From: a virus
DNA length: 37,396 nt
IMG/VR virus record: IMGVR_UViG_3300002242_000130
Location: 1 to 37,396 of that record
Strand: one strand, 5' to 3'
Part shown: in pieces, positions 10,352-37,396 of the stretch
Numbering within the stretch: position 1 is the stretch's first letter
Layout: every line of letters starts with the position of its first letter
The notes under the pieces: model-generated
The model's database searches: none
What the model was told of the DNA's origin: nothing
Seen by the model: only the letters and a program-made list of their open reading frames with translations
Made by a program: the position numbers and the translations under genes

Positions 10352-13300
10352 ATGCCAGAAATTAAAAATACATTTCTTAAGTCTAAAATGAACCAAGACT
10401 TAGACGAAAGGTTAATTGAAAAGGGAGAGTACAGAGAAGGAAAAAACATTTCAATAAACAAATCAGAAGGTCCCAACGTAGGTGCGTTAGAGAATGTATT
10501 GGGTAATACAGAAACTAGTAAATTAGGAAATAATATCCAAGATGTAGGTTCTACTGGAAAAAATTATATTCAAAGAGATTCTTATGAACCACTTAGTCCA
10601 TTATATCCACCTGGTGGATTTCCTATTCCTTGTCCTTCTTCTACTAATGACGCTGCGGTAGATCCTAACTCTTTTGTTAGAACTAAAATGGAAGTGATAG
10701 GTAGTTATGTTGATACACAAAATAATAGAATATATTATTTTTTAACAGATTACACTGATTGTAGTCCTCAACTAACTGCACGAGCACCTAGTGATTTTTA
10801 CGAAACTGTGTTTGGCTACGTATCAAGGGGAGCTATTTGTCAAATAGTATGTTACAATACACTAACACAAGACACTACTATTCTGGTTGAAGGTAGTTGG
10901 TTAAATTTTTCTACTACAAATTATATAACAGGAGTAAACCTATTAGAAGACGTACTAGCATGGACCGATAACAGAAATCAACCTAGAAAAATTAATGTAG
11001 ATTTTGCTTTTGGCGCTCCGGCTTGTTCAAGTAATCCTTATTATCAAAACGAAGATCACGTGTCGGTTGCTAAATATGCACCCGTAGAAGTCATTGATTT
11101 TCAAAGTCCTATTCCTACTACAGCTTTAGATATAGAAGATAAAGAATCTTTACTAAAAGATAAAGTTTCCCAATGGAACCCTCCTCACTTTTTAACAAGT
11201 ATTTCTAATTTAGCTGGCGCGGGTGCGGGAGATGTTACTTTAAGTGATGCGTATTCGTTTGGTGTTCCATCCTCTAGTGACTATTTATGGGAGGGTAACG
11301 GTTATTGTATTAAATGTACTAATGTAGATAAACCTAATTCACCAGATGTTTTTATACAAAGCTTAATAAATCCCCCATTAGATATTGTTAGAACAGCAAA
11401 CATAACTAATAATGCTGTTATAGTGGATGTTACTACACCTACTTATAATTGGGAAGTAGGAGATAAGTTAAGATTTTGTTATTCTAACGTTGATTTTGAT
11501 TTGACGTTTCCAGGTGATGAAAACTATTTAAAAGATAAATTTCCTAGATTTAGTTATAGATTTAAGTATGATGATGGAGAATATTCATTAATGGCTCCAT
11601 TTACTCAAGCTGCTTTTGTTCCAGGAAACAATGGCTTTTTTATAAATAATTTTGATTATGATGCTGAATTTTTAAAATTAGAAGGAGTAGCACCTGATGA
11701 TTTAGCTGAACCCGTAGATAACTGTAGTGTAGGAGATGAGAAAAACGCTGCTGAGACCGGTGTGGTTGATTTCATGGAAAATAAAATAAACTCTATAGGT
11801 CTAAAAATAGATTTACCAACTACAGTTGATAAACTTACAAGCGAATACAAAGTTGACGAAATACAAATACTTTTTAAAGATGCCAATGAGCAAAGTATAA
11901 AAGTAGTTGAAGATATAAGCAGTGAAATATTCAGTCAACCACCTAGTTTTGTAGTGTCAGGAAGCGCCTGCGGAAACAATTATTTTGATGAACTAACTAC
12001 TCTATATATAGAAGAAACACTTGGCGCAATGGCTTATGCGTTTTCATATTTAAATAATGGAATATACACAGATTGTGGCACTGATACTTACGCTCAGCTA
12101 TTTAGAGAAGATGGCATAACTCCTTTATTATCTATTGATGGAGAACCGATTTATCTTACAAGTATTTTTCCTCCAACTGGCTATTGTTACCCTGACTGTG
12201 AAGACGCTTTATGGCAAATAGGATTTGAAGCTATTACTGGAGGTGCTGTAGAATTACCTGTAAATGCTTTGTCAGTAGGTGAAAAAATAGTTATAAAAGC
12301 ACAATGTTATCCTGATCATTATATTTTCGAATACAACTCTATAAAACCTTACAAAGTTCTTCCTGAAGCAGATTTAATTAGGGTTAGCGATAGAGTTCCT
12401 GTAGCTGCTTTGAGTCAAGAAATCGTGTCTAATAGAATAGTTTATGGAAATTATTTAGATAAACATACTTCTCCTTTATATTTAGACTATGAAGTTGATA
12501 TAAATGTTAGAAGAGGAGTTCAGTATGAAGACTCAGACATGAAGGCGTTGCCTTTAAGTACTTTAAAACAAAACAGAACTTATCAAGTTGGAGTAGTATT
12601 ACAAGATAGATATGGTAGAGCTTCTAGTGTAACTCTGAGAAATCCAGCTCAGTTAATCACAGACAGTTTTTCTAATGACACTGTATTTGCTCCATATTCA
12701 TTTGGACAACCAGATCCAGTTCAGTGGTTTGGGAACTCATTAAAAATAAATTTCAACAATCCTATTCCATCTGACGGTATACAAGGTTATCCTGGTCTCT
12801 GGAGTGAAGATAATCCTTTAGGTTGGTACAGTTATAAAATTGTAGTAAAACAACAAGATCATGATTATTATAATGTTTATGTACCAGGTGCTACAAGTGG
12901 GAAAATTACATGGGATCCTATAGGTGCTAGCGCCGGAGGAGCAGCTCCTGCAAATAGACACCAATTAGAACCAAGGTATATTAATACTACAGTTGTTTCT
13001 AACATATCCTTATTCGGAGATAATATAAATAAAGTTCCTAAGAATTTAAATGATCCTGGGCCAGTGCAAGAAGTTTTTGGATCTGAAGAAGTGTTATGGA
13101 ATATTGTCATGCCTAATTATATTGAATCAGCAGAAATAAGCAATCCTTTACCATATCAAATGTCTATTTGGGTAAACCAACAATTTAGTCCAAACTCAGG
13201 TGTTTCTTATAGTTACAACTATAACAAAGCTAATGTAACTACTCTTCAACCGTGGAACACGTTAGGAGAGTGGACTAATAGAAAAAGAGACACTGATCTT

Positions 13301-19812: not shown

Positions 19813-22800
19813 ATGGCAGAAGATCTAGAAGTAGAAGAGTTTGTAGAAGATAATAATCAAGCTGACTCACCGTGTCCGGATTGTCCTGATGGAAGTTCAC
19901 CAGGAAGAGATCCAGATGGTAATTGTTTACCATGTGCTCCGGAAGGAACCGTAATGACTAGAGATGAACGCGGACAAGAAGTTAGTGTTAAAAATCAAAG
20001 TGTAGCGGATGAAATAGAAGGGAAAAAAGCTTTAGCTAGACTAGACAAATCTGAAGGTGAAAAACCTGAAAATACAGCTCAAGAAGGTTTAGATGAACTA
20101 AACACGATTGTGGAAAACGTTGAGAGTAAAGTTGGGGATGATGCAGATTATGAACTAAATGACTGGGAGACAAATTTATTAGAACTTTCTACTATGCAAG
20201 ATGAAGAAGGTTCTACTGTTGTTTTAAGTAATGGAGAAAAGGTTTATAACCCATTGAACGAAATAAATCAAACTAAACTAAAACAAGTTATTTCACAGGC
20301 TTCAAATGGAGTTGCGGTTCCTGCTTCTCCCGAAAATCTAGGTTTATTAGAAGGTTATGGGTATACTTTTATTGAAATAACACCTGAACTTAGACAAGCA
20401 GGTGTAACTTATGAATATATATTAGAATTAGGTAATATAAATAACTCTCCTAATAAAGTTGAAAAAATTCAAACAACTAGTTCTTCAGAAGACCAACAAA
20501 AACCTTTAACTTCGCAGGGAGTACAACCTAGTGAGTTAAGATCACAAAGTGAAGGTTTTCAAGAAGATATTCAAAGTCAACTTCCTCAACCAAGCGAAGA
20601 AGAGGTTACTGCTAATTTAGATATTTTAGCTTCAACTCAGCAGATGACTGAGAACGAAAAGTGGTTTATGATACAGAACAATGTTGGAAAAATAAATGAT
20701 TATCGTCAAGAAGAAGGGAATGAAGCTATAATTGTAGATCCTGATGGAAATATTATTGGTATGGCTGGTGTTCCTTTGGGAAATAATAATGTTCCTCAAA
20801 GAATGCCTGCTAATGTTTTAGACGAGATTACTCAATTATTAATTAGTGGTCCTGACGTTATACAACCCAGTAGAGAAACATTGTATCATTTAGGGTTAGT
20901 ACAGTTTCAAGATGAAACATATATGAGTGATAAAGACAGAGAAGCTGAAGAAGAAATGCTTACTAGTCAAACTGGATTCACTGAAACCCCACAAGAAGGA
21001 TTAAATAACTTGCTCATAGAAACTTTAAATCAACCTAGATTTGAAGGAGTACTTCGATATGTTATAGACAATGACGCACAGGTTACTAGAAGAGATAATC
21101 TTTATAATATAATGGGTGTTGATGAAGAAGGAGAATTAACTAAATCAAGACTTGATGGTACTACACCTATGTTTAATGGTAAACCTTTTAATCCTGATAA
21201 AGGTACTCCATTACAGCAAGCAGCTTATGTTCAGCAAAAACAAACCTTAAATGCAATAGAAAAGTCTTTTCTTCCTGTTACTTGGGACTTAGAATATGCA
21301 GCAGACATGAAGTATAAAATGGCTCATGCTTCAAGCGTAGAAGAATTTGAAAATTTACAATCAGAATGGAAATCATATATTCAAAAACAAGATGTTGATG
21401 GTATTGAAGAAGACACCGAAATGCTTTATAATCCGCAAACTGGTAACTTATTTAGAAGAGATGAAATAGATCCGGAAGATATTACTAAGTATAATCTTAT
21501 TCCATTAGAACAATTTGTACGATCAGAATATGCTTTCACTGATGAAGATCAACTACTCGAAAACATCATGGATCAATCCTTTGATTTAATTGCTGCTGCA
21601 CAGCTAATGTCCGAATCAGATAATTTTGGATCTCAAATGACTGCATGGAATAGAGATCTCATAGGTGTAATTAATAAAATAGCAGACCAAGGAAGTTTAG
21701 ATGGATTAAAGACGGACAAGAGGTCTCCATTTATAGGCAAATTAAAAAAGTTTCATTTTCCTGACAGTCCAATTGAACACCAATGGAATAACTTAGTAAA
21801 CAAACTAACAGTTACATCTAGAGCTTATTTAATGAACTTTGATCCATTAACCTTAGAAAGAGATGGTACAGCAGATGGTTTTACAGATAGAGCTGCTGAA
21901 TGGTTAGGAGTGGATAACGTATCTCCTGATGAAGAAAAAACTGTCTGGGCTAATCATTTTCAAGAAGATTTTCCAGAGTTATGGAACAGTATGACTAAGG
22001 TGGAAAGAGATGCTTTTTATGAAAGTAGCGCATGGAGAAGCTTTGGACAAGGAAGTTTTGATTTTGCAATTATAGCCGCAGAGTTTTTATTAACGAGAAA
22101 GTTAGTTGGCGGCACTTTAACTAGAGTGCTTTACGGAGACGCAAAATATGGTTATACAGGTTTAAGAGGAATAGCTACTCAAGCTAAAACTGGAAGTAGT
22201 TACAGCGCTTTAGCAACAAAAGTTGGAGCTGGTAACGGTGGTAAAGCTACTAAAAGTATGATTGACTGGAGCATGTATTATGCTGAAGAAGTAGGTATTG
22301 TAGCAGCTAATGATGTTATATGGCAGGAAGAAATGAATCCATTTTATTTTCCTATAGGTATCGCTACTATGAGAACGGTATTGAATAGAGCTCCTGCTGG
22401 TTTCTTATCTAAGCTAGATGATCCTAAGTGGGTTAAAGCTAATCCTGCAAAAGCCAATCAGTTAAAAAAAATACATAACGTATTAAAGAAAACAGGGTTT
22501 CCAGCTACATTAGAAGAAGGTGCGGTTCAAGTGAAAGCTATAGGTACTGGTGCTTTTACTTTAAAAACTGGTGGTTTATTTGAAGGACTTGGGCACGCTG
22601 TTGAAAACCCAGATGATTCTGGTTTGATTGCGGAAGCTTTTTTAAACTTTGTTGATCCTAAAGATTGGGCTAATACAATGGGGTTTTTAGTTGCTAATAG
22701 ATTACTTTTACCAGACAAAGCTAATAGGGCAATGTTTAACAAATTTAAACTCGATGCTAAAAGATTATTAGATGTTGATAGAAGAGGCTTTGCAAGTACT

Positions 22801-25800
22801 CTAGGTGGCAGTAGAAAGTCTTTCTATGATCCTAAAACTCCTTTAGGCACTAGAACCAACAATATTGATAAAGCGGCTTCTAAAGCAAAGAAAAACAGAG
22901 GACTTAATATTGGTGATGAGAGTAATTCTGATAGAATTTACGAAAGCATTAAAAACGATTTTAAACAATTAGGGATTTCAATTAGTGAGATAAAAGGGAA
23001 AAGTTTGCAAGAGATTGGAGAACTAATGAGATCTAAAGCTAACCAGAAAAATAATGGAGAAGGGGCTAGTAATCCTGACATAGCGGCAATGACAAAAATT
23101 TACGACTTCTTACAAGGTGGAGGAGTTACTGTTGAAAATCTAGTTAATCACCATGAAATTAGCACTGCGCAAAACTTTTCTCACGCTGTTAACGAGACTC
23201 AAGCAGCTATACACTTGTATGATAAAAGCACTGCTGCAGGAGCATATGATCCAGATGACTTTGCAAAAACAGCTGTTGGCCAAAAACAAGGATGGGTACC
23301 TAATTCTAGAGAGTTACAGTTTATAGGTAATACTAGTAACAACGCTTTAAAAGTAATGTTAACAGAAGCAGGGTGGACTGAAACTCAGATTTCACAATGG
23401 TTAGGTAAGTGGACTGCTGTAGCGGAAAATATACAAGCTGCCACTTTTAGATATGGTTTTAAAGCTGGTTCTCCAGAACAACAACAGTATATAAGAAATG
23501 AGCAGAAATATACTAATTTAGTAGATATATTAGATGTAGCTAAAGAAGAATTTAAAAACAACCCTAATAGTGTTAATACCTTAAACCTTGAAATGGCTCA
23601 AGGAAAAGTTGATGCTCAACTACAGAAACAAATTGACTTAATAACTGAACAAAAGAAAAAGACGAGAGAAGAAGGAGAAAAGCTACTTGACAAAGCCCAA
23701 GAAGAAGGAACAGAGGTTTATGAAACTACAGCAGAAGTAGTAGCAAGAATTGATGAATTAGCTGCAAACGACCCAGCTATGGCACCAGAGTTAATGCGCT
23801 TAAAAAGAAAAATTGAATATGAAAAACAATTTACTGTTGAAGATAATCAAAAACTAGATGATTTAGATTACGAAATTGAACAAGCCGATTTAGCCGGAGA
23901 TTTAGATCTTTTAAAAGATTTGCAAGCACAAAAACAATTTATAATAGATAACGCTGCAGATGTAGGTTCTAAAGGGTTCTCATTACCTAACGGTGTTAGT
24001 ATAGTTAACAAAGAGTATATCGGTAACGAACTTAAAACCATGATGAATTCGAGAATAGGTGATTGGGCTACGGGTCAACATGAAAATATTCACCATTGGG
24101 TTAATGACATACTTCGTCAAAAAGGTTTTAAAACAGCTGAAGGTAAATGGGTTAAAGGTGGTCAAGTAAAAGCTAGAGAATTTGTAAAAAAATTCAAGAA
24201 TCTTCTTACTGAACCTCAACGAGAAATAATATTACAACGTTTAAGTAAAGATGGTAGTTATCAACGAGATCCTCAGGGTAGTATAGAATGGTTAAACTAC
24301 TATGCTGAAGCTTTACTTAAAGGAGAGTTAGATTACGGTTACAATGACATTGAGCAAATGGCTGAGTTAATTGGATCAGAACTTAAAGCAGGAGCTAAAC
24401 AAATGGGTATGTCAGATGCAGAGTTTGAGTTATCTCCTGAAGGTATGATGAACTTTCTTTTGGGCTATGCTGCAGATACACGTAAAGGAGGAATGTCTTA
24501 TAGAGACAAAGTAATGGCGGTAATGGCTGGTAAAAAAGTTGATCTATCTGACAAAGACGTTAAAGAGGTTGAAGCTACAGTTGAGGATCTTGAAGGTAAA
24601 GTTATTGAATGGAGCGAAGAGTTAAAGGAATTTGAAGCTAAAAAGAAAGAATTAATAAAAGAAAAGTCTAAGACTAGTCATCAGTACATGGCTGGCGACA
24701 TGACTAAAGAAGATTATCAAGACAGAATAGATGGTTTGAATTTGAAAATCAAGTTAGCTAAAGATATGATTTCAAATGTTTCTGATAAAGATAGCTCGTT
24801 AGAGATAAGAATAAGAAACGCAAAGAATATGGAGATAATAAAAGATCTAAGTATTCCTCAATTTGATTCTAGAAGAGTTAGAGCTGACAACCAGTTATTT
24901 GAAGATAACCAAGGTATTTTGCAAGCAGAAAGAGCTAAATATAATCCTAATTTAGGAGAAGGTATTACTAGATCTGACTGGAACGCGGAAATATATAAGT
25001 ATTATACTGATGCTGTAAAAAGCTACAACCCTAGTAAAGGTGCTTTTTCCACTCATTTACAATCTACTTTAAGCCACAAGTTAGGAAATTATATTGATAA
25101 AAACCTAGACAAACTAACTAAAGAATCCGGTGATTACTTTCCACAAAGACCTGATCAGCAGGCGAGTTCTAGTGGTGAAGAAATGACAAATGCGTGGGAT
25201 ATAACCATGCAGCAAATTGATAAAGGTTATCTAACTGAAGGTTCTCCTGAGTATACTTTAGACTACAATATTGAGGGACAAAAAGGTTCTATATCAAAAG
25301 GAAACAATAGAGATCGAAGTCTTTCCGGTGTAGACGCTGAAAAAATATTATCTGAAGAATTTAATATGAATACCAATGAAATGATTGGTATGGTAAATGA
25401 GGCTTTAGGTAAATTAGGTTTGGAAGATTTTACAATGAAAGGCTTGCATACTGAAAAAATAACTCTGGAAGATGGAACTGAAGTTCCTTTAGGAAGAGCT
25501 TTAGAAATGAGTATTAGAGAACAGTTCGGACCAGAAATACACACAGCTAAAGATGGCGGATTAAAATGGGGAGCAAAAGAAAAAGAACATTGGAATACTT
25601 TTTTAAATGAACATTGGGAAACTATATATCAACTTCTACCTGAAAATTTAACTAGTGAATCTTTTACTACTAGAGGAGGTCAAACTACGGGAGTAAGAAA
25701 TGTATTGCTAAACGAATTTTATACTAAAAAAGATAGAGTAGGGGCAGGACAAGGTTTTTCTGATAAAGGAGTTGGTTCTAAATGGCAAGAAAAAAATCCT

Positions 25801-28800
25801 GTTGATTTTAAAAGTAATATAGATAAAGAAAATTTTATTGCTTTCGTAATGGGAGGTAAGAATAGATTGGAAGCTATATTAAATGAAATGGCTAAGACAA
25901 CTGGTAATCAACTTGCTAGACAAACTAAAGATGCTGCAACCCAACAAAAAATGTTACAACAAGGTATAGATAAGCCCGAATATGAAAAATATACTGAACA
26001 GCAATTCTTAAATAATATTGAGGCTCAGTTGAGGTCTGGTATGAGTAAGATGGCTGATTCTGAAGGAAGAGTATTGTTTTCAGAAGAAATGCAACAGAAA
26101 GGTTATGATGAAGTAGCTGAAGCAGTATTGGTATTCAATGATTACAACCAAAAACATAAACCTGTAAAAGGTAAAAATTTCTTTGAATATTACAGGGATT
26201 GGAAAGAAGGTGATCGTGAAAATATTCCAGACTCCATGTTAGCAGATATAATGCAAGTGGATATGGATATATTACAGAAAACTCAAACAAAAGCAGGTTC
26301 TAAAAGATTTGGACAAAAGTTTACTGAGTTTGTAGGTGAGGAAGAAAACATAAAAAATGTTGGGGCTAACTTCAATAGAAATACAACTGAAGTAAAAAGC
26401 ATGCTCAAGCGTCTTGATAATCAAAAAGCAACATTATACTCAGAGAAAGATGGTAAGAAAGAATGGGATGAAGACCGATTAAAAAGATTTAATAAAACAC
26501 ACCAAGAGTTTTTCGAGTTCGTAATGACTTCTTTTCCTGAATTAAATAAATTAACTCAAAAAACAGGAAATAGATATGACATAACTAAGGGTAAAGAAAT
26601 GATTACTCAGATGTTTGGTATCGGTGATAGAACAAGTGGAAATAAAGAAGTTGGTTTATGGTCTGAGTGGTTTAAACCTGAAAACTTTAAAGAAGCTTTA
26701 GATAATCCTAATGTATCTCAAGAAGCTAAAGATTATTTCAACGCTATTGATTGGAGTCAAGTAACCGCTAATAACATAGGAGCATTTGGTAAAATAAAAA
26801 GTATTTTACAAGGAACTTATGATTCAAAAACAGGAGAGTTAAAAACCAAACCTAGTGCTGATCAACAAGAAAAAATTAACGCTGTTGCTAAAGAACTTAA
26901 ACCTGAAGCCCAACAAGCTTTAGGAAATCTTTATAAGTTTTGGGCAACAATGAAAAATGATTTTGTTGTAAGTAAAAACAATGGTGGTAAAGGTGATATT
27001 GCTGAATTAGAAAATGCTTTAAGTTTTGTTAAACATCTAGAACAATTCAACTCTAATTTAGTTTATGGACCAAGATCAATGTACAATACTAAATATTTCT
27101 ATGTTACTGAAGGATATCAAGATTTTAGCGTAGACAATCCTATTTATAAAGAAAGATATGAAGATGTATTGTATCAATATAGAGATGTTGATGCTACTCA
27201 ACCAATTAAGATCGGAAAGAAAACATATGACAACTTATTTAAATATGCTGAATACGCCGCTAAGGAATGGGCTAAGTTTAAAGGAGAACATGTATACGAT
27301 TCATCTAATCAATCTTATAAAGGTTATGTTGATATATTAAAAGGAAACACAGCTGATGCTCTTAAAACTAAAGATTGGGACTTAATGGTTCAAGTAATGT
27401 CTCCAAAAAGAAATTTAGATCGCGTCGATAATCTTTATGGTAGTACTTCTCCTTATAATTATACTAGGTTTGTTTCTGAAAATAAATCTATATTAGAAAA
27501 CTATATAGATCCAATGACAGGTGAAACTCTATTAGAAACTGTTAGAATGAAAGCTGGAGAGCGCGTGGATGAGATAATGAACAGAGATGTAGATATACAA
27601 AAACTACTTGAAAACCCAGCTTTTAAAGATAAATTTGATGTTGTAGCTGTTACAGATGCATTTAATAAATATGATCCTACCTCAGTTGCGTTAGTAGAAA
27701 CTTTACTAAACGCTATTAAAGATCCAAAAGCTGCAGAAGCTAGTACTGAAGCAGCTAACACTCAAGCTACAGAAAGACTTAATGAGATGGGTGTTGATGT
27801 TGAAATAAAGGGTTTAACTGAAACTGAAGCTAACCACGTAACACAAATGAGTGAGGAGTTTCAAAATCATGAAGGTACTGTTGATAAAAAACTAGGTATA
27901 CCAACTAAAGAAGTTAACGCCGAAGTTGGAGTGTTAAATGGGGTAATGGAAGAAGTTACTGCGGAAATGTCAGATTTTGATGATGTTTTAGGTTCGTCAG
28001 ATACTATTATAAAATATACTACAACAGACGGAGTTGTACACGAAATTACTCAAGATGTATTTAATGCTAAAAAATTAGAAATAGAAAGTGCTGAAGATTT
28101 TGTAGCAGACTCATGGGATTATGAAGGTTTTAATAGCATGGACACGGCTGTTGAAGGACCAGATTTTCAATATCAATTAGATACATGGAATAGACTAGTT
28201 GAAGAAGGAAGACCAGAAGACTACTTTTTAATTACTGCAAGAGGTCCAGCAGGAAGAGCAAACTATGTTGAGTGGATGAACAACCACGGGTTTAAAGGTT
28301 TTACTGAAGACAATTTAATTACTACTCAAGGAACATTAATTGAAGGGGCTAGTGATCACGTATGGGATAACAAAAAGGTAATCATGGGGTTATTAGAACT
28401 AGTTTCTGGTCAACGTGGTAAGTTTTATAATAAAATAAATATATCTGAAGATTATAAACCTACTATAGAAGCTTTTGAAGTAGCTTTAGATCAGTTAGGT
28501 TTAGCTGGAGAACAAAGACACATTATTGAAGAAAGTTCTGAACTGTTTGATTTAGAAGACAAAACTAATGCTGTAGATATACTGCTAGAAGAAAGCTTTG
28601 GAATAGACAGAATTAAAGAATACTCTGCAGTAAGAGCTCATCAAATAGGAGAAAAATCTGGAAAAAGAACCGGTTTATTAGGACCTCAGTATCAAGATAT
28701 GGAAGGTTTATATTACGGGCTTATTTCTCCTGGTAAAAAAGGAGAAGCTCAATTAAAATACTTAAATGAAAACCATTTAGATGTTTATCTTGATAATCAA

Positions 28801-30711
28801 ATGAAGCATGAAGGAGAAACTATAAGAATGGGTAAAGAGTATAATGTTCTTAGAGAAGAAAATAATACTATATTAAAAGACAAAGATAAAGTTCTAAAAT
28901 TAAAAGGAGTAGGTACTGAATATACATTAGAAGATGTTATCAGGATCGGCGCATGGCAAGCTGTAGGTACAGAAATAAATGGAATCGCAAAGTCTGATTT
29001 AACAGCTATAAATAATTATTTGTCAGAACATCCAGAAATAGCTGCTTTTTCTCAAAGATTAATAGGTGTTAGTAAATTAGGTACATATGAAGGTATGACT
29101 AATGACGCTTCTTGGAAAGCTGGTAGTATTGAAGGGGATTTATACAGCACTCTTAGAGGCTCAGTTAGAGATAATGTATTTCAACCTTTCTATATAGCAG
29201 ATGCATTGCTTTTCCCAGAAAGAAATGAAAACAAAATACGAGTAGCTAGAGGAAATGCTTTTGGAGATGAATTCAACACTATGAGACAAACCATGAGAGA
29301 TGGAACTAATAGACTCGGTCAAGGTAATATTCAAGATCAAAAGTATTTAAATTATTTTACACAATGGCAACAAGCAGTGATGAGTGTAAATCTACGATCT
29401 ATGGCAATGCAAACCACTTCTCTTACTAACTTTATTAATGTATCAGATAATAACATATTTGCAGCAGGTAAAGCGTTTGCTAATCAACCTAGATATTGGA
29501 AAGATGTTGCAGAAATTTGGAATTCAGATTGGGCAAAATCTAGAAGAGGTGGTGGAAATGAAATAGCTTCAGCAGAGATAATTGAACTATTGAAAACGTC
29601 TAAAGGTAATAAAATGCAAACCTTTTTAAATTACATGTTAGAAAAAGGGTATAAACCTGCTCAAATGGGTGATATTGCAGCTATAGTTTTTGGTGGCGCG
29701 CCGTTGTTACAGAATAGAACTCAAACTTATGTTAAAAAAGGAATGAGTTATGAGGATGCGAGAGCTAAAGCGATGAAAGATGTGTACAAAAAAGTACAAC
29801 GAAATCAGCAATCTCGTCTACCAGGTTTCTTAGGTAATTGGCAGAAGAGCATGAGAGGTAGAATCTTTGGTGGATTTCATACTACACAGTTTGCTTATGC
29901 TAGAGAAATAGATAAATCTTTAAGAGATATAAAAAATGGAAGAGGTAGTTTAAAAGAAAATCTATCTAAAGTTTTAAATTATGGAGTTCTTCAACCTGCA
30001 GCTTTTGCAGCTGGACAAGGAGGTTTATTCATGCTATTAGCTAGTGGATATAGTGAAGAAGAAGCTAAAGAAATGATGTTGCAAACTGGTAGAACAGCAG
30101 GCGGAAACGTTATGCAAGGTTTTGGAATGCCAGGAATACTATTAGATGTTTCACTACAAGCAGGTGAAGAGCTTTATAAACAATCTCAAAAAGAAGGTAC
30201 ATGGCCTGGTCCTGATTATTCTAAAGCTTTAATGAAGTTTTTAAATTTATCTCCAGCAATAGGAGGTAAACTAAAACAATTTTTAGGAGCTGCTAATGCT
30301 ATTAAGTATCAAACTAGTGTTACTAGAAATGGTAAGAAATATACTATAGATTATAAAGTTTACGATCCTAATAATCCTAAATTTGAAGCTGCAACTAAAA
30401 GTCTTCAGGCTATTTTTAATATTCCGGCAGAGAACTTTAGAAAACTATATGCCAACGCTTGGGCTGTAGGTTTGAAAACTATGGATCCAGCAGCTTGGGA
30501 TGCAGGAGATATTTTAAAAGTTAATGCTCTTATAATGGGCTGGCCAGAGTGGCAAGTTACTAATCAAGCTGATAAAGATGCTAAAAGAGCTTCAGAGAAA
30601 AAACAAATATTAGAAGAAAATTCTGAGCAAATGATGGAAGATAGATTTAATAAAGATAATTGGGGAGACAAAGACGATAAAGACCCTTTTGACAAAGCAG
30701 ATAACTGGTAA
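19813..30711 (+). CDS. Giant polyvalent virion protein (zincin-, sigma- and HAD-like parts)
   Basis: This 3632-aa chain is the largest gene here and the third of the probable ejection proteins. In order it shows: a Cys pair motif near the N-terminus (CPDC at 21-24 and CLPC at 38-41), possibly zinc-binding; Glu/Gln-rich helices; a zincin-like site HENIH at 1423-1427, preceded by an INKE-type strand and followed by a helix with NYYAEALL that could give the third ligand; a coiled coil (about 1575-1625); a sigma-region-2-like segment around 1737-1760 (SYNPSKGAFSTHLQSTLSHK); a HAD-like domain (DFDD at 2721-2724, LITAR at 2806-2810, SED at 2878-2880); and a conserved C-terminal region (about 3185-3420, with LRSMAMQTTSLTNFINVSDN and a hydrophobic segment near 3390-3412). 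I recall the HAD and C-terminal blocks from polyvalent proteins of marine phages. It is probably packaged and injected. N4 gp50 has similar length, but I could not find its polymerase motifs. Confidence 0.72.
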   Translation: MAEDLEVEEFVEDNNQADSPCPDCPDGSSPGRDPDGNCLPCAPEGTVMTRDERGQEVSVKNQSVADEIEGKKALARLDKSEGEKPENTAQEGLDELNTIVENVESKVGDDADYELNDWETNLLELSTMQDEEGSTVVLSNGEKVYNPLNEINQTKLKQVISQASNGVAVPASPENLGLLEGYGYTFIEITPELRQAGVTYEYILELGNINNSPNKVEKIQTTSSSEDQQKPLTSQGVQPSELRSQSEGFQEDIQSQLPQPSEEEVTANLDILASTQQMTENEKWFMIQNNVGKINDYRQEEGNEAIIVDPDGNIIGMAGVPLGNNNVPQRMPANVLDEITQLLISGPDVIQPSRETLYHLGLVQFQDETYMSDKDREAEEEMLTSQTGFTETPQEGLNNLLIETLNQPRFEGVLRYVIDNDAQVTRRDNLYNIMGVDEEGELTKSRLDGTTPMFNGKPFNPDKGTPLQQAAYVQQKQTLNAIEKSFLPVTWDLEYAADMKYKMAHASSVEEFENLQSEWKSYIQKQDVDGIEEDTEMLYNPQTGNLFRRDEIDPEDITKYNLIPLEQFVRSEYAFTDEDQLLENIMDQSFDLIAAAQLMSESDNFGSQMTAWNRDLIGVINKIADQGSLDGLKTDKRSPFIGKLKKFHFPDSPIEHQWNNLVNKLTVTSRAYLMNFDPLTLERDGTADGFTDRAAEWLGVDNVSPDEEKTVWANHFQEDFPELWNSMTKVERDAFYESSAWRSFGQGSFDFAIIAAEFLLTRKLVGGTLTRVLYGDAKYGYTGLRGIATQAKTGSSYSALATKVGAGNGGKATKSMIDWSMYYAEEVGIVAANDVIWQEEMNPFYFPIGIATMRTVLNRAPAGFLSKLDDPKWVKANPAKANQLKKIHNVLKKTGFPATLEEGAVQVKAIGTGAFTLKTGGLFEGLGHAVENPDDSGLIAEAFLNFVDPKDWANTMGFLVANRLLLPDKANRAMFNKFKLDAKRLLDVDRRGFASTLGGSRKSFYDPKTPLGTRTNNIDKAASKAKKNRGLNIGDESNSDRIYESIKNDFKQLGISISEIKGKSLQEIGELMRSKANQKNNGEGASNPDIAAMTKIYDFLQGGGVTVENLVNHHEISTAQNFSHAVNETQAAIHLYDKSTAAGAYDPDDFAKTAVGQKQGWVPNSRELQFIGNTSNNALKVMLTEAGWTETQISQWLGKWTAVAENIQAATFRYGFKAGSPEQQQYIRNEQKYTNLVDILDVAKEEFKNNPNSVNTLNLEMAQGKVDAQLQKQIDLITEQKKKTREEGEKLLDKAQEEGTEVYETTAEVVARIDELAANDPAMAPELMRLKRKIEYEKQFTVEDNQKLDDLDYEIEQADLAGDLDLLKDLQAQKQFIIDNAADVGSKGFSLPNGVSIVNKEYIGNELKTMMNSRIGDWATGQHENIHHWVNDILRQKGFKTAEGKWVKGGQVKAREFVKKFKNLLTEPQREIILQRLSKDGSYQRDPQGSIEWLNYYAEALLKGELDYGYNDIEQMAELIGSELKAGAKQMGMSDAEFELSPEGMMNFLLGYAADTRKGGMSYRDKVMAVMAGKKVDLSDKDVKEVEATVEDLEGKVIEWSEELKEFEAKKKELIKEKSKTSHQYMAGDMTKEDYQDRIDGLNLKIKLAKDMISNVSDKDSSLEIRIRNAKNMEIIKDLSIPQFDSRRVRADNQLFEDNQGILQAERAKYNPNLGEGITRSDWNAEIYKYYTDAVKSYNPSKGAFSTHLQSTLSHKLGNYIDKNLDKLTKESGDYFPQRPDQQASSSGEEMTNAWDITMQQIDKGYLTEGSPEYTLDYNIEGQKGSISKGNNRDRSLSGVDAEKILSEEFNMNTNEMIGMVNEALGKLGLEDFTMKGLHTEKITLEDGTEVPLGRALEMSIREQFGPEIHTAKDGGLKWGAKEKEHWNTFLNEHWETIYQLLPENLTSESFTTRGGQTTGVRNVLLNEFYTKKDRVGAGQGFSDKGVGSKWQEKNPVDFKSNIDKENFIAFVMGGKNRLEAILNEMAKTTGNQLARQTKDAATQQKMLQQGIDKPEYEKYTEQQFLNNIEAQLRSGMSKMADSEGRVLFSEEMQQKGYDEVAEAVLVFNDYNQKHKPVKGKNFFEYYRDWKEGDRENIPDSMLADIMQVDMDILQKTQTKAGSKRFGQKFTEFVGEEENIKNVGANFNRNTTEVKSMLKRLDNQKATLYSEKDGKKEWDEDRLKRFNKTHQEFFEFVMTSFPELNKLTQKTGNRYDITKGKEMITQMFGIGDRTSGNKEVGLWSEWFKPENFKEALDNPNVSQEAKDYFNAIDWSQVTANNIGAFGKIKSILQGTYDSKTGELKTKPSADQQEKINAVAKELKPEAQQALGNLYKFWATMKNDFVVSKNNGGKGDIAELENALSFVKHLEQFNSNLVYGPRSMYNTKYFYVTEGYQDFSVDNPIYKERYEDVLYQYRDVDATQPIKIGKKTYDNLFKYAEYAAKEWAKFKGEHVYDSSNQSYKGYVDILKGNTADALKTKDWDLMVQVMSPKRNLDRVDNLYGSTSPYNYTRFVSENKSILENYIDPMTGETLLETVRMKAGERVDEIMNRDVDIQKLLENPAFKDKFDVVAVTDAFNKYDPTSVALVETLLNAIKDPKAAEASTEAANTQATERLNEMGVDVEIKGLTETEANHVTQMSEEFQNHEGTVDKKLGIPTKEVNAEVGVLNGVMEEVTAEMSDFDDVLGSSDTIIKYTTTDGVVHEITQDVFNAKKLEIESAEDFVADSWDYEGFNSMDTAVEGPDFQYQLDTWNRLVEEGRPEDYFLITARGPAGRANYVEWMNNHGFKGFTEDNLITTQGTLIEGASDHVWDNKKVIMGLLELVSGQRGKFYNKINISEDYKPTIEAFEVALDQLGLAGEQRHIIEESSELFDLEDKTNAVDILLEESFGIDRIKEYSAVRAHQIGEKSGKRTGLLGPQYQDMEGLYYGLISPGKKGEAQLKYLNENHLDVYLDNQMKHEGETIRMGKEYNVLREENNTILKDKDKVLKLKGVGTEYTLEDVIRIGAWQAVGTEINGIAKSDLTAINNYLSEHPEIAAFSQRLIGVSKLGTYEGMTNDASWKAGSIEGDLYSTLRGSVRDNVFQPFYIADALLFPERNENKIRVARGNAFGDEFNTMRQTMRDGTNRLGQGNIQDQKYLNYFTQWQQAVMSVNLRSMAMQTTSLTNFINVSDNNIFAAGKAFANQPRYWKDVAEIWNSDWAKSRRGGGNEIASAEIIELLKTSKGNKMQTFLNYMLEKGYKPAQMGDIAAIVFGGAPLLQNRTQTYVKKGMSYEDARAKAMKDVYKKVQRNQQSRLPGFLGNWQKSMRGRIFGGFHTTQFAYAREIDKSLRDIKNGRGSLKENLSKVLNYGVLQPAAFAAGQGGLFMLLASGYSEEEAKEMMLQTGRTAGGNVMQGFGMPGILLDVSLQAGEELYKQSQKEGTWPGPDYSKALMKFLNLSPAIGGKLKQFLGAANAIKYQTSVTRNGKKYTIDYKVYDPNNPKFEAATKSLQAIFNIPAENFRKLYANAWAVGLKTMDPAAWDAGDILKVNALIMGWPEWQVTNQADKDAKRASEKKQILEENSEQMMEDRFNKDNWGDKDDKDPFDKADNW

Positions 30712-32717: not shown

Positions 32718-34580
32718 TTATTTAATCTCACAAGCTCCACCAGCACAAGCTAGTTCACCTGATAAGTCTGTGTTATCTTCTGTTTCTGTTATGTTTGATA
32801 AGTCAACTTGTTTTAACGAATGCATTAACTCTTGATATTTACTTGGATCTATATCCTCAAATGGAGCTTGAGTATATGTTCCACCATCATAAGGTAATAC
32901 AGATAAACCGTTATAGTATTCTCTATTGTCCCACATCCAATTACCCGCTTTGTACCATTCTTCAGGTTGTAAACTTACAGTTGCTGATACATTATGAGTG
33001 TTAGATCCTTTCCTATGACCTGGTTTAACCCATTCAGTTGCTATCTTTTTAACTCTATTTAAAAGATCAAATGGAGACTCAGTTCTAAGTATTGAACCTT
33101 CAGGAGCTTTCTGTGGTATAGATATTACAGCGGTATCGTGAGGTCGGAAATATTCATCTTCAATTAACTCAGGATGATGTTCAGCTAAGTATTTATACAT
33201 TGATTCGTTTTTTCCAACTCTTATCCTACGGATGTAGTAATCATTATGCCACGCATGAATACCTGATGAAGTTCCTAATGCCAGAGATGTAGTCCCAGCA
33301 GGCTTTACGGTTGTACATCGTGCGGCTTTGTTAATTCCAATCAGCTTCGCGACTCTTGTGTTTTCTCTTTTTACAAGTTGAGCGGCTTTCTCCATGTCGT
33401 ATCCTAATACCGTGCCACTCCCTATCCCCGTCATACTCACTCCAATCAGAGCGTCTTTTTCGGTTGTTTCTTGCCATATCTCTCTTAAATAATGGAAGTC
33501 AGTGTAACCAGCTTGTAACGTTCCAATGAACGCTGCAGCTTTTACTCTTTCGTTTAGATCATCTTGTGATTCAAGATCTGAAACATTAACTTCACATAAG
33601 TTACAAAATTGATAAGGTCGTAATGCTATTTCACAGCAGGGATTTGTACCCCAATCCTTATCATTGTTAAAATAAATTCCGGGTTCTCCGGCTCCACTCT
33701 TTTCAACACGATCCCATAAATTCATAAAGTAATCTCTAGTAATTTTATGTCGCATTAAGACAGCAGAGTTGTTTGATCTACCTCTTTGTGGGTTTGTTTC
33801 CCACCAGTCTCCAGATTTACAAGCAATCATTTCATGATCATCGGCAGAGAATAAAGATATTAACGCTGCTCTTCTGATACCACCTGCTAATACAGCATCT
33901 GCTATATGGCAAACAATATCATGAACTTCTACAGTTGTTAACTGATCTCCATCTTCTTTTGATTGTAATATTCCTTTAAGTTTAACTAAACATTCTTTTA
34001 AAGGTTGTGGGCCAGGAGCTTTACCTCCTGACGTTACTAGCTGAGCACCTTTAGGTCTTATATCCGAATAATCGAAACTAATTTTAGACGATCTCCGATC
34101 ACCCATATAAGACTTCATTAATACTTTAATCGCATCAGCCCAACCTTCAATTGAATCACCAATAAGAAATCTTCTCCTACGCTTGTCATAAGGTTTATTT
34201 ATAGGAGGTAATTTATTTACGTGGTGGTCTTGAACAGAATACCCTACACCAGTTCCTCCAAGAAGTAAAAACATTACTTCATGAAAAGAATCTACATGGT
34301 CAATAGGGAGATAAGCGCAGTTATATACTCTGTTAGGAGATATCTCAATCGGTTTACCACCGAACTGTAAACTACGCATACTTGGTAAAACCTTCTTTTC
34401 ATATACTAACTTATAAACTTTTTCTATTTGGTCTTTTAAGTCTGGATACTTTTTAATATGCATGTGTTTATTCCTTGTTACTAATTCATCCCAAGTTTCC
34501 CTGCGATTTAATTCTGGAATATACTTTGCATATTTCATATACACTGTAATATTAGATAAGATTTCACTTGCTAGTTCCAT
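32718..34580 (-). CDS. nrdJ: Ribonucleotide reductase, adenosylcobalamin-dependent (class II, monomeric type)
   Basis: This 620-aa enzyme reduces ribonucleotides (in the RTPR type, triphosphates) to deoxyribonucleotides using a B12-derived radical. The active-site set is complete and spaced as in Lactobacillus leichmannii RTPR: Cys88 (YNCAY), thiyl Cys315 with Glu317 (NPCCEI), Cys326 exactly 11 residues later (the 408/419 pair of RTPR), and a C-terminal CAGGACEIK with Cys612 and Cys617, five apart and three from the end (RTPR 731/736 of 739). It is about 120 residues shorter than RTPR, mostly at the N-terminus and between Cys88 and Cys315, where RTPR carries its allosteric insertion. It is the last gene of the - strand operon; its start overlaps the upstream 75-aa gene by 17 bases. 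The host must supply cobalamin. Confidence 0.93.
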   Translation of the reverse strand: MELASEILSNITVYMKYAKYIPELNRRETWDELVTRNKHMHIKKYPDLKDQIEKVYKLVYEKKVLPSMRSLQFGGKPIEISPNRVYNCAYLPIDHVDSFHEVMFLLLGGTGVGYSVQDHHVNKLPPINKPYDKRRRRFLIGDSIEGWADAIKVLMKSYMGDRRSSKISFDYSDIRPKGAQLVTSGGKAPGPQPLKECLVKLKGILQSKEDGDQLTTVEVHDIVCHIADAVLAGGIRRAALISLFSADDHEMIACKSGDWWETNPQRGRSNNSAVLMRHKITRDYFMNLWDRVEKSGAGEPGIYFNNDKDWGTNPCCEIALRPYQFCNLCEVNVSDLESQDDLNERVKAAAFIGTLQAGYTDFHYLREIWQETTEKDALIGVSMTGIGSGTVLGYDMEKAAQLVKRENTRVAKLIGINKAARCTTVKPAGTTSLALGTSSGIHAWHNDYYIRRIRVGKNESMYKYLAEHHPELIEDEYFRPHDTAVISIPQKAPEGSILRTESPFDLLNRVKKIATEWVKPGHRKGSNTHNVSATVSLQPEEWYKAGNWMWDNREYYNGLSVLPYDGGTYTQAPFEDIDPSKYQELMHSLKQVDLSNITETEDNTDLSGELACAGGACEIK

Positions 34581-34936: not shown

Positions 34937-35091
34937 TTATATTGTTTTTCAAATTCTATTAATTCTCTATATTTCAAATATCCTTTCTGTTCAATACTCC
35001 ATTTAATAAACTTATCAACTTGTCTATTTTTGTATTGTATCCTAGCTATTGCTTTTTGTTGGATAGGATGTGGTTTATAGTTGCGTCGCAC
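34933..35091 (-). CDS. 52-aa basic protein with a GTG start
   Basis: An open frame with a GTG start at 35091 and TGA at 34933 fills the gap between the endonuclease and the 59-aa gene. The protein is basic and helical (RRNYKPHPIQQKAIARIQY, then FIKWSIEQKGYLKYRELIEF). It has no in-frame ATG, overlaps the endonuclease end by 46 bases and joins the next gene by ATGA. The sensible amino-acid pattern and the absence of any other explanation for the gap support it. The start codon is uncertain and no function is known. Confidence 0.55.
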   Translation of the reverse strand: MRRNYKPHPIQQKAIARIQYKNRQVDKFIKWSIEQKGYLKYRELIEFEKQYK

Positions 35092-35495
35092 TCTGCTTGA
35101 TTTTGTGGTTTGTAAATTGTGTATCCAGGCAAAAACATTTCGACATATCTTTTAAATAGTTTCCATCTTATTGGAAAAGATTCATTAGGTCTACCTTTAC
35201 ATTCTATTATAAAGTCTCTACCTACAAAATCTGGGGTATATTTTATTCCTAAAACATTTTTGTTTCCTCTATTTTTATATTCTCCTTTGCTATTTGCACA
35301 TCTCTCATATACATCGCTTTGAAATTTAAAAGCATGTATTAGTTCATACGTTTGTCCTTCGTATGTAGCTTTTATATTAGCTTCTTTTAAAGCTTTATAC
35401 ATATAAGCTTCTAGCCCAGAGGCGAAAGAAAGACCATCAACGATAGTCTTCTTTGCTCTAACTGGTCCTTTTTTCTTCTTTTTACCCCGCCACAT
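35046..35495 (-). CDS. PD-(D/E)XK endonuclease (T7 endonuclease I / DUF1064-like)
   Basis: This 149-aa nuclease has the restriction-endonuclease fold signature: Glu29 in a FASGLEAYMYKAL helix, Asp89 in YTPDF, then Glu98 and Lys100 in IIECKGR. The order E...PDF...ExK matches phage junction-resolving or debranching nucleases of the T7 endonuclease I type and the DUF1064 group. After the core, the helix FPIRWKLFKRYVEMF is typical of the group. A Lys-rich N-terminus (MWRGKKKKKG) could bind DNA. Likely roles are resolving branched replication intermediates before packaging or degrading host DNA. It overlaps the MazG-like gene by 14 bases. Confidence 0.8.
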   Translation of the reverse strand: MWRGKKKKKGPVRAKKTIVDGLSFASGLEAYMYKALKEANIKATYEGQTYELIHAFKFQSDVYERCANSKGEYKNRGNKNVLGIKYTPDFVGRDFIIECKGRPNESFPIRWKLFKRYVEMFLPGYTIYKPQNQAECDATINHILSNKKQ

Positions 35496-35850
35496 CTGAC
35501 ACGTAATAAGGTAAACCTACACTTGGTTGTGATTTATTTTCTAATGATTCTTTAGCAGATTGAATGTATAATATTGCATCCATTAACTCTTCTTGAACAT
35601 CATTAAGATATCCTGCTAGATCTTTATGTCCACCAGTTCTCTCATCGTGTAACGTCTTACCATACTTAGCAAAACCAACATCTGATCGTGATACGAATTT
35701 ATCTACAACTCTTTCAACAACTGGATCTCTAAATTTAATTTTCTTTTCTTTCATTTTTTTTATTTCATTAAATTCCCAAATAAATAATATAAAAAATCCT
35801 ATAATTTGTACTGCAATTACAGCCAGGGCTGTCATTCCAAAATTATCCAT
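35482..35850 (-). CDS. Membrane-anchored MazG-like (all-alpha NTP pyrophosphohydrolase) protein
   Basis: Residues about 5-25 of this 122-aa protein form one transmembrane helix followed by positive residues (KKMKEKK), so the C-terminal domain should face the cytoplasm. Residues about 44-102 match small phage MazG-like pyrophosphohydrolases: GFAKYGKTLHDERTGG, then QEELMDAILYIQ, whose EExxD (Glu87, Glu88, Asp91) would bind Mg2+ and the nucleotide phosphates. The usual second acidic pair is less clear, so activity is not certain. The start at 35850 shares the 8-base overlap ATGGATAA with the upstream stop, the same overlap as at the preceding junction, which supports keeping the membrane segment. 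Confidence 0.7.
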   Translation of the reverse strand: MDNFGMTALAVIAVQIIGFFILFIWEFNEIKKMKEKKIKFRDPVVERVVDKFVSRSDVGFAKYGKTLHDERTGGHKDLAGYLNDVQEELMDAILYIQSAKESLENKSQPSVGLPYYVSDVAG

Positions 35851-36748
35851 TTTTTACAAATGTTCCGTTAATCATTTTACCTTTACGGTTTTTGATCTCA
35901 TCGTAAGCAGCGTCAATGCAAGTTTCAATTGATGTTCCACCTAACATAGCCATATTGGTTAATACAACTACCATATCACCGATAGCATCTACAAATTCAA
36001 CTTGATCATCCTTAAGTACAGCTCTACCTAATTCGCCAGCTTCTTCCATTAGCTTGCAGAACTGAGTTTTAGTATCACCTTTGTCATACAATCCTCTTGA
36101 ATCTGCCCAATCCCTAATTTTTTGAAATCTATCTTCCTCTTTAACTTCTAAGTCTTGATACATTTCTCTAGAATTAACAGCTCTTGAATGTGATATTAAT
36201 TCTGCTTTCATTGCCTCTATTTGATCTAACGCTCTATCAGCAGCTTCCTTAGCATTGACCTTGGCTTGTTTAAGGTTTTTGTTAACGAACTTTTCAAAGA
36301 AAGCTTTATTGTATATGTAACATCTTTCTGTAGTGTACATAGATGTTGTTACGTTTTTCATTATCCAATCTATAGTATCTTTGTTTATTTCAAATCTACC
36401 ATGAATCGTTTCCCATGTTTTACCTAGCTCGTCCATTAGTCTGCCTTTAAGCTTAGAAACAGGTACAGGAAATGTTGAGGTTTGCTCTGTTGCGTTTATA
36501 TTCATTGTTTTTGATTTCATTTTATTCATATATAAGTTTTTGTATAATTGCCTATCAATCTTATAGCCATAAGACTGTTGAAGTTCTATCTCACGTTTTG
36601 ATATATAATCTATATCGTCACTGTGATCAAGAACTTCATATTCGTCTGGTTTGTATCCCTGTTGTTTTGTTACCCTATTATTAAGATCACGTGTAACCCC
36701 AATCTTTTTACCCGGGATGTGGTATAAATAATATATTATTTTATCCAT
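35843..36748 (-). CDS. GIY-YIG-like / MazG fusion protein
   Basis: This protein (301 aa from the chosen start) joins two enzyme folds. Residues about 4-70 resemble a GIY-YIG nuclease: YYLYHIPGKKIGVTRDLNNR gives the paired tyrosine/KIG strands and the Arg, and REIELQQSYGY gives a Glu. The middle (about 90-200) is helical and unrecognised. Residues about 206-301 are MazG-like: LMEEAGELG (Glu235, Glu236, Glu239) and EFVDAIGD (Glu251 to Asp258). MazG domains hydrolyse NTPs or dNTPs to monophosphates and PPi. An earlier ATG at 36778 exists, but 36748 is preferred: the GIY-YIG strand begins right after it and it overlaps the upstream gene by ATGGATAA. The canonical GIY and YIG letters are degenerate, so nuclease activity is uncertain; the MazG part is firmer. 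Confidence 0.75.
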   Translation of the reverse strand: MDKIIYYLYHIPGKKIGVTRDLNNRVTKQQGYKPDEYEVLDHSDDIDYISKREIELQQSYGYKIDRQLYKNLYMNKMKSKTMNINATEQTSTFPVPVSKLKGRLMDELGKTWETIHGRFEINKDTIDWIMKNVTTSMYTTERCYIYNKAFFEKFVNKNLKQAKVNAKEAADRALDQIEAMKAELISHSRAVNSREMYQDLEVKEEDRFQKIRDWADSRGLYDKGDTKTQFCKLMEEAGELGRAVLKDDQVEFVDAIGDMVVVLTNMAMLGGTSIETCIDAAYDEIKNRKGKMINGTFVKNG

Positions 36749-37379
36749 AATAATTTGCCTTTCTTTGTAATAAGCCATTCTTGTTTAAATCTCTCTCGTA
36801 CAAATGTAAATTGTGGGCGAAATGGAAATATGAACCCAGTTCATATCCTGTCCTCTCTGCAACAACCTTCATCAGTTCTGAAAAACAATACTGATCGTTA
36901 CAGAAACCGAACCAGAGATCATTAGATCGCATCGTCACACACATCTGCAGTCTATTATTTACAACTGTAAACTGAACCGCGTATGTACATGGAGTATCTT
37001 TACGATACTTATTTATTTCTTTACCATCGTATATTGATATTGCAGCTTTTCTAGTATTAGGGTTGTCTTTTAATTGTTGTACAACTTTATCTAGTTGATG
37101 AGCTCTTTCCCATTGATAACCATAATTAGAGTTAACTAATTTTTTAGGTCCTAAAGCCATACGTTCCCATATTGCAGGTACTTTACCATACAGCTCTCCT
37201 AATTTATCAACAGAATCATCACCTGACAAATACCATTCCCATTCGGCTTTTGCATAATCTAAATTCCAGTTTCTGTATGGAGCTGTTATATGGTTATTTA
37301 ATGGTTCATGAATATTAAAGCCAATATTAAATAATGCTCTTGTATTATCAAAAGGTTCACTCATATCTTCATGATTCAT
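36741..37379 (-). CDS. Deoxynucleotide hydroxymethylase, T4 gp42-like (thymidylate synthase superfamily)
   Basis: This 212-aa enzyme transfers a one-carbon unit from methylene-tetrahydrofolate to a pyrimidine dNMP. Against E. coli ThyA from the catalytic Cys onward the alignment is ungapped: Cys131 (=146), Arg151 (=166), Gly158 (=173), His192 (=207), Tyr194 (=209). Glu46 matches Glu58. At the dUMP-specifying Asn177 position it has Asp162 (MRSNDLWFGFCNDQY). T4 dCMP hydroxymethylase also has Asp there, and as I recall it shares NSNYG and MRSND..FGF.ND. The Cys is followed by Thr rather than the synthase's His. The product is therefore probably 5-hydroxymethyl-dCMP. It is shorter than ThyA (264 aa) and T4 gp42 (about 246 aa), and the frame is open to the window edge, so extra N-terminal sequence is possible, though the ATG at 37379 with its A/T leader looks normal. 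Confidence 0.82.
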   Translation of the reverse strand: MNHEDMSEPFDNTRALFNIGFNIHEPLNNHITAPYRNWNLDYAKAEWEWYLSGDDSVDKLGELYGKVPAIWERMALGPKKLVNSNYGYQWERAHQLDKVVQQLKDNPNTRKAAISIYDGKEINKYRKDTPCTYAVQFTVVNNRLQMCVTMRSNDLWFGFCNDQYCFSELMKVVAERTGYELGSYFHFAHNLHLYERDLNKNGLLQRKANYYG

Positions 37380-37396
37380 TATATCATAAAAATACA

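Follow-up and report, generated by a model that had tools for sequence, protein, structure and literature searches.

Does the thymidylate synthase-family gene at one end of this viral contig supply thymidylate, or does its product act on cytosine nucleotides? The DNA analysed (hereafter the window) is a 37,396-base record that represents a fragment of a virus. The gene in question is the following.

36741..37394, minus strand: dCMP hydroxymethylase-like gene of the thymidylate synthase (TS) superfamily; open frame of 217 codons (217 aa), 5' end cut by the contig end

Reading frame and superfamily

The frame (37394 to 36741, minus strand) runs open to the contig end, and the N-terminus of the protein is missing. 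The initial annotation had bounded the gene at 36741-37379. That start was corrected: because the frame is open as far as 37394 and two relatives (L002 and L003, 88% and 87% identical) begin ca. 12 residues further upstream, the ATG at 37379 is internal. Assignment to the TS superfamily is not a chance match, given the E-value of 6e-27 obtained with the Pfam model Thymidylat_synt. The Pfam, PHROG and NCBIfam models all call the gene thymidylate synthase, as had been foreseen for automated annotation; the NCBIfam scores are far under their cut-offs.

Counted from the ATG at 37379, Cys131, Arg151, Asp162, His192 and Tyr194 lie 0, 20, 31, 61 and 63 residues from the Cys. In the aligned E. coli ThyA sequence, Cys146, Arg166, Asn177, His207 and Tyr209 have the same spacings, gap-free. 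The original placement of Asp162 at the Asn177 position, ungapped and with the other four residues fixed, was thus accurate. The protein ends ca. 20 residues past the His-x-Tyr motif.

Residues that mark the probable hydroxymethylase

The initial annotation took Asp at position 177 as the mark of a hydroxymethylase. As a sole criterion this residue was rejected. In the available text of PMC8670742, a canonical TS carrying Asn177Asp makes 5-methyl-dCMP, not hydroxymethyl-dCMP, and 25/31 loci of an enzyme from sister phages (the query's own included; see below) combine Asp177 with TS architecture; for these reasons Asp177 is insufficient. The same text associates Asp177 with modified metavirome contigs. 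The conclusion drawn from the residue held, the full T4 signature being present, and the reasoning did not, as Asp177 predicts a cytosine substrate only.

The signature of T4 dCMP hydroxymethylase, as described in the accessible part of PMC6400193, comprises Asp145 three residues before Cys148 (the -3 position) and Ser94-x-Tyr96, beside Asp179 (the counterpart of ThyA residue 177) and Glu60, without a C-terminal tail; in that account, methyl-forming TS enzymes have this tail and, at -3, a hydrophobic residue. A family alignment of 81 sequences was made from the window and 80 relatives (the best 80 of 452 loci found). In T4 numbering, Asp145, Asp179, Ser94, Tyr96, Cys148, Ser169, Asp171, His216 and Tyr218 are present in 81/81 sequences (the search peptide NSNYGYQW covers Ser-x-Tyr for 65/80 loci), and Glu60 and Trp82 in 80/81, one row being gapped at each. 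The deoxyribose-selection residues Arg123' and Ser169 both occur in 81/81, and the column of ThyA Val262 is a gap throughout (81/81), i.e. the TS tail is absent.

Six query peptides were used to find the relatives. None covers Asp145, so its invariance is independent of how the relatives were found. The peptide that covers Asp179 was the sole one in just 6/80 loci; since the other 74/80 contain at least one peptide from outside this position, the invariance of Asp177/179 is mostly not a search artefact. Judged by sequence, the -3 Asp, Ser-x-Tyr at T4 94/96, Glu60 and the missing TS tail constitute a well-supported mark of a predicted hydroxymethylase.

Comparison with known enzymes

T4 gp42 (PDB 1b49, 6a9a) shares with the window protein Asp179, Asp145, Ser94-x-Tyr96, Glu60, Trp82, the catalytic Cys, Ser169, Asp171, the His, the Tyr and the missing tail. 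It differs in that T4 Arg59, Arg177, Val85 and Arg124 are Ala, Cys, Met and Lys, respectively, in the window. Arg59 and Arg177, both T4 folate-tail residues, are replaced across the family (Ala in 80/81 with one gap; Cys in 81/81), and the second phosphate-binding Arg, a Lys in the window, is variable in other members.

The nearest known phage homologues come from Bacteroides phages and are annotated as dCMP hydroxymethylase. One of them, gp45 of phage BF503P1 (annotated deoxycytidylate 5-hydroxymethyltransferase), is 46% identical to the window protein, has the same signature residues and Cys at T4 177, and clusters with the window family in the tree. The deep branches of that tree have support of 0.36-0.64, and the nearest known hydroxymethylase is not settled beyond the Bacteroides phage protein. 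Unlike the window phage, BF503P1 has a second, divergent homologue, gp40, beside gp45. Its locus (L082:9080-9886 and 11959-12639) holds two TS-superfamily genes with the Asp/Asp signature and dut between them; the upstream one is without Glu60.

The best PDB sequence matches are hydroxymethylases, among them MilA CMP hydroxymethylase (1.6e-21) and T4 dCMP hydroxymethylase (5e-15); both rank far above E. coli ThyA (ca. 1e-9), although a thymidylate synthase A entry, 1bko, matched at 9e-16. An AlphaFold model of the window protein (pLDDT 80.6) was superposed on T4 dCMP hydroxymethylase (T4dCH, 1b49) with Z 17.8, rmsd 3.2 and 194 aligned residues, and on MilA (5jnh) with Z 17.7, rmsd 2.9 and 198 aligned residues. 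As a discriminator, the comparison of a structure model with T4 gp42 and ThyA that the initial annotation had proposed was rejected, with hydroxymethylases (Z 17.3-17.8) and TS (ThyA, up to 16.7) only about one Z unit apart.

Competing assignments

A dCMP methylase would apply the TS mechanism to dCMP and lead to 5-methylcytosine. In the mutated TS of PMC8670742 (available text), Asp177 is what turns the enzyme to dCMP methylation, and in sister phages of this lineage the slot is filled by just such a predicted enzyme. The window enzyme departs from that class, which is set by description (Leu143, Trp83 and tail plus Asp177) rather than by a proven dCMP methylase sequence: its -3 residue is Asp where the class has Leu, T4 position 94 is Ser, Met takes the place of Trp83, and the protein stops short of a C-terminal tail. 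As the tail and the hydrophobic -3 residue are absent, methylation is not expected, and this assignment is very unlikely. Less likely still is an FAD-dependent 5-hydroxy-dCMP synthase of the RB69/Thanatos type, with 5-hydroxycytosine as the outcome. By Z, the dCMP hydroxylases 9iqc and 9iqu head the structural matches (17.8-17.9, level with T4dCH) and also have Asp at 179, and the Mosigvirus 5-hydroxy-dCMP synthase is a TS-superfamily enzyme according to the accessible text of PMC13390438. In the two sequences from which the features of this class were read, RB69 ORF048 (RB69/AfhB type, near-identical to 9iqc) and Thanatos TH1_062, the -3 residue is Glu, Thr replaces Ser94, Phe stands at Glu60 and Asn replaces Asp171; the residues were taken from a smaller alignment, as both proteins are misaligned at 94-96 in the larger tree alignment. 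At these four positions the window has the folate-type residues Asp, Ser, Glu and Asp, and for this reason its enzyme is classed as folate-type.

MilA (PDB 5b6d) is the best PDB sequence match, has Asp at -3 and 177 as the window does, and gives fold Z scores of 17.4-17.7, but at Lys133 and Ala176, the positions by which MilA selects ribose, the window carries Arg and Ser. Changing MilA to the Arg/Ser residues shifts it to dCMP (PMC5175136, in the part available), and by this comparison Ser169 and Arg123 point to a deoxyribonucleotide substrate rather than CMP; a MilA-like ribonucleotide hydroxymethylase has a lower probability again. An ordinary thymidylate synthase, the name given by the automated models, is the least probable of all, for the window has none of Asn177, Leu143, Trp83 and the C-terminal tail, and the NCBIfam scores are as low as noted above. 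The dUMP hydroxymethylases of the SPO1 gp29 type pair the -3 Asp with Asn177, and the window has Asp177. TS, dUMP hydroxymethylase, CMP hydroxymethylase and the RB69 FAD-type synthase each fail to match the window in at least one tested residue. From these residues, the window gene very probably encodes a deoxycytidylate 5-hydroxymethylase of the T4 gp42 type.

The partner gene and its neighbours

Downstream of the hydroxymethylase gene lie four further features.

35843..36748, minus strand: partner gene; N-terminal GIY-YIG-like (T5orf172/MUG113 type) domain and C-terminal MazG-type NTP pyrophosphohydrolase
35482..35850, minus strand: small conserved neighbour, matching only PHROG families of unknown function; related gene in 67/81 loci, window included
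35046..35495, minus strand: DUF1064/Holliday-junction-resolvase-like protein (Pfam DUF1064 6.9e-8; phrog_190 3.4e-11)
32718..34580, minus strand: adenosylcobalamin-dependent (class II) ribonucleotide reductase (phrog_367 1.5e-132; TIGR02505 7.9e-84, below its cutoff)

For the partner gene, whose longest ORF begins at 36778, the likely start is the ATG at 36748; this lies behind the sequence AAAGAAAGG and gives an overlap of 8 bases with the hydroxymethylase stop. The partner follows the hydroxymethylase in 80/80 testable loci (window included; L027 ends too early), 73 times within 60 bases. The gene is carried by 80 loci and the window; 37 of these partner sequences, the window's among them, were aligned. 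At E<=0.01, MazG was detected in 37/37 of these, T5orf172 in 7/37 and MUG113 in 4/37; the window's own partner gives only MazG and PRA-PH at this threshold, its GIY-YIG matches being at 0.016-0.028. The GIY-YIG-like domain, though usual in the partner, is absent from the ORF of L078, and the ORFs of L080 and L081 are equally short.

Foldseek matches to the MazG part were cyanophage S-2L MazG, other MazG proteins and mouse dCTPase, all weak (E 0.04 to 0.3). T4 gp56 is annotated as a dCTPase, and by analogy the partner may remove dCTP. T4 endonuclease II may offer a further analogy. The related family PF01503 is found beside TS-family genes in modified contigs (PMC8670742, available text). A literature search, with thin coverage of subscription papers, returned no phage report that joins GIY-YIG, MazG and hydroxymethyl; within the same coverage, the best-matching papers on phage hydroxymethylcytosine or hydroxymethylase contained no flavobacterial mention.

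The DUF1064 protein and the ribonucleotide reductase sit further downstream, the latter as a nucleotide-supply neighbour. Members of the window clade have a class II (B12) reductase; a class I pair takes its place in, e.g., L023, L012 and L048, and the class I small chain was confirmed by Pfam in G046. Features annotated as recombinase in OL658619, OP056089 and NC_079185 cover close relatives of the window's class II reductase.

Exchange of enzymes in sister phages

The sister phage G054 has a TerL 79% identical to that of the window, ends that share ca. 127 bases, and synteny with the window's relatives. Its slot (L204:3414-4181) encodes a 255-aa protein with Leu143, Trp83, an ...AKVAI tail and Asp177. 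This enzyme is like that of the window in syntenic slot, partner and Asp177, and unlike it in having Leu143, Trp83 and a retained Val/Ile262 tail. The two families are only ca. 31% identical over the aligned part, and Asp177 therefore probably arose separately in each.

Searching with the G054 protein gave 31 loci (its own included), 25 with Asp177 and six with Asn177. The same partner stands beside 24/25 of the Asp177 loci, the exception (L250) having only ca. 670 bases of sequence downstream; 0/6 Asn177 loci show it. The 24 partner-linked Asp177 loci are predicted to encode dCMP methylases. Enzymes so predicted (TS architecture, Asp177, Tyr at 147) occupy the slot in L204:3414-4181, L227-L249 and L257. 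The predicted dCMP methylase of sister phages in the slot of the hydroxymethylase is the new element here.

A tentative proposal, plausible though not favoured, is that Bacteroidota-type podoviruses have a swappable cytosine-modification slot. It would be filled by a hydroxymethylase (5-hydroxymethylcytosine, 5hmC) or by a TS-type enzyme with an independently acquired Asp177 (predicted 5-methylcytosine), and the same GIY-YIG/MazG partner would act as a cytosine-exclusion enzyme, MazG removing dCTP and GIY-YIG cutting DNA with unmodified cytosine. If true, such swapping of products while the partner stays conserved would represent a new kind of modularity in base-modification systems.

Phage lineage and replication genes

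In its TerL, portal and head genes the window resembles podovirus-type phages of Bacteroidota. TerL identity is 65% to Manatee Spring phage MW202828, 47% to Flavobacterium elemoviruses and 44-33% to Maribacter, Cellulophaga and Tenacibaculum phages. Two relatives are effectively complete: G003 (66,953 bases, ends sharing ca. 170 bases) and G046 (71,510 bases, ends sharing 3,965 bases). A 3,632-aa ORF (window 19813-30711) closes the block of structural genes, and similar giant ORFs are found in G001 and G046. Hydroxymethylase loci L115-L120 come from metagenome bins named Halieaceae, Flavobacteriaceae, Aliivibrio, Saprospiraceae and Sphingobacteriaceae; these are probably phage contigs binned with hosts.

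ThyX was absent from 46/46 related records searched (46 of the 80 loci), each of which has only this one TS-family gene (G046 twice, via its end repeat). Among the named relatives, 0/7 match PF00303. The lineage members scanned have genes for a primase-helicase, ERF and a ligase. Matches to DNA polymerase families A and B were absent from 25 lineage records (G001, G003 and G046 included), which would leave incorporation of the modified nucleotide to a host polymerase.

Kinase and tailoring enzymes

In the lineage records searched, the beta-glucosyltransferase family and gp1-type kinase of T4 have no counterpart. PF21448 (T4 hm-dCMP kinase) matched T4 only among 28 records, with 0/25 in the lineage; as no kinase of the T4 type was detected in those 25, the phosphorylation of hm-dCMP would depend on some other kinase. 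PF09198 (T4 beta-glucosyltransferase) matched 0/33 window-type records; in the same search (43 records), T4, VPE25 and ATCCB matched, and 3/7 records of a sibling lineage did so below the cut-off. PF02543 (carbamoyltransferase) matched 0/28 records, 25 of them from the window lineage, and Pfam revealed no transferase among the large uncharacterised ORFs of two complete genomes (20 proteins). With neither transferase family detected, the final base in the window lineage may be plain 5hmC or bear an unrecognised group.

The sibling lineage has the same hydroxymethylase (L025, L029, L040, L053, L055, L067, L080 and L081). In L029, a T4-glucosyltransferase-like gene (sub-cutoff, 8e-5) and a PLP-dependent enzyme lie beside it. 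The full cassette (L029:2893-6564; also in L025, L040, L053, L055, L080 and L081) consists of the hydroxymethylase, the T4-glucosyltransferase-like gene, a PALP enzyme, a 300-aa uncharacterised protein and DUF6378, and hypermodified cytosine is a possible product. Outside the family, ATCCB, VPE25 and T4 each have an enzyme of the same signature within ca. 0.5 kb of a beta-glucosyltransferase gene. These glucosyltransferase neighbours support cytosine hydroxymethylation as the general role.

Palindrome content

Observed/expected (O/E) ratios of tetramer palindromes were compared in matched regions of 46/80 hydroxymethylase loci, 17/24 Asp177-TS loci (>=9 kb) and only two genomes with neither enzyme; the loci are related, and no p-value is claimed. 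C-containing palindromes had O/E ratios of 1.01 (hydroxymethylase, 46 loci), 0.89 (Asp177-TS, 17 loci), 0.74 (MW202828, which has ThyX) and 0.59 (elemoA, with neither enzyme); the corresponding AT-only ratios were 0.99, 0.98, 0.98 and 0.96. C-containing palindromes are thus avoided in the two relatives that lack the gene and not in the hydroxymethylase loci, which lends weak support to relief from restriction. A coarser whole-genome test (nine hydroxymethylase genomes vs. eight others, some partial) gave 0.95 vs. 0.79, but it was rejected as confounded, the AT-only control also differing (1.00 vs. 0.93).

Proposed pathway and its implications

The step-by-step chemistry proposed for the window enzyme is transferred from T4 as described in the accessible part of PMC6400193. 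The catalytic Cys would attack C6 of dCMP while Asp162 (T4 Asp179) recognises and protonates the cytosine. The Glu equivalent to T4 Glu60 would activate 5,10-methylene-tetrahydrofolate, and the one-carbon unit would pass to C5. Asp128 (T4 Asp145, -3 to the Cys) would then activate the water that adds to the exocyclic methylene, yielding 5-hydroxymethyl-dCMP. Around this step, dCTP may be stripped out by the adjacent MazG-type enzyme and precursors provided by the ribonucleotide reductase of the phage, and a host or unrecognised kinase would phosphorylate hm-dCMP. Cytosine in the phage DNA would be exchanged for hydroxymethylcytosine, with protection from restriction as the presumed result. Provided that the kinase and polymerase steps work, the presence of 5hmC or a derivative in the DNA is, in our judgement, likely.

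The enzyme itself belongs to an already known type; less expected are the exchange of enzymes in the slot and the conservation of the GIY-YIG/MazG partner. Automated annotation hides a group of 80 or more viral contigs in which hydroxymethylcytosine probably takes the place of cytosine. By comparing residues, five outcomes within one superfamily (dTMP, m-dCMP, hm-dCMP, ho-dCMP and hm-dUMP) can be told apart, and the comparison is usable for re-annotating viral thymidylate synthases. The slot exchange links the conserved GIY-YIG/MazG protein to base modification, and the exchange of two predicted cytosine-modifying chemistries within one lineage is a natural experiment in selection by restriction.
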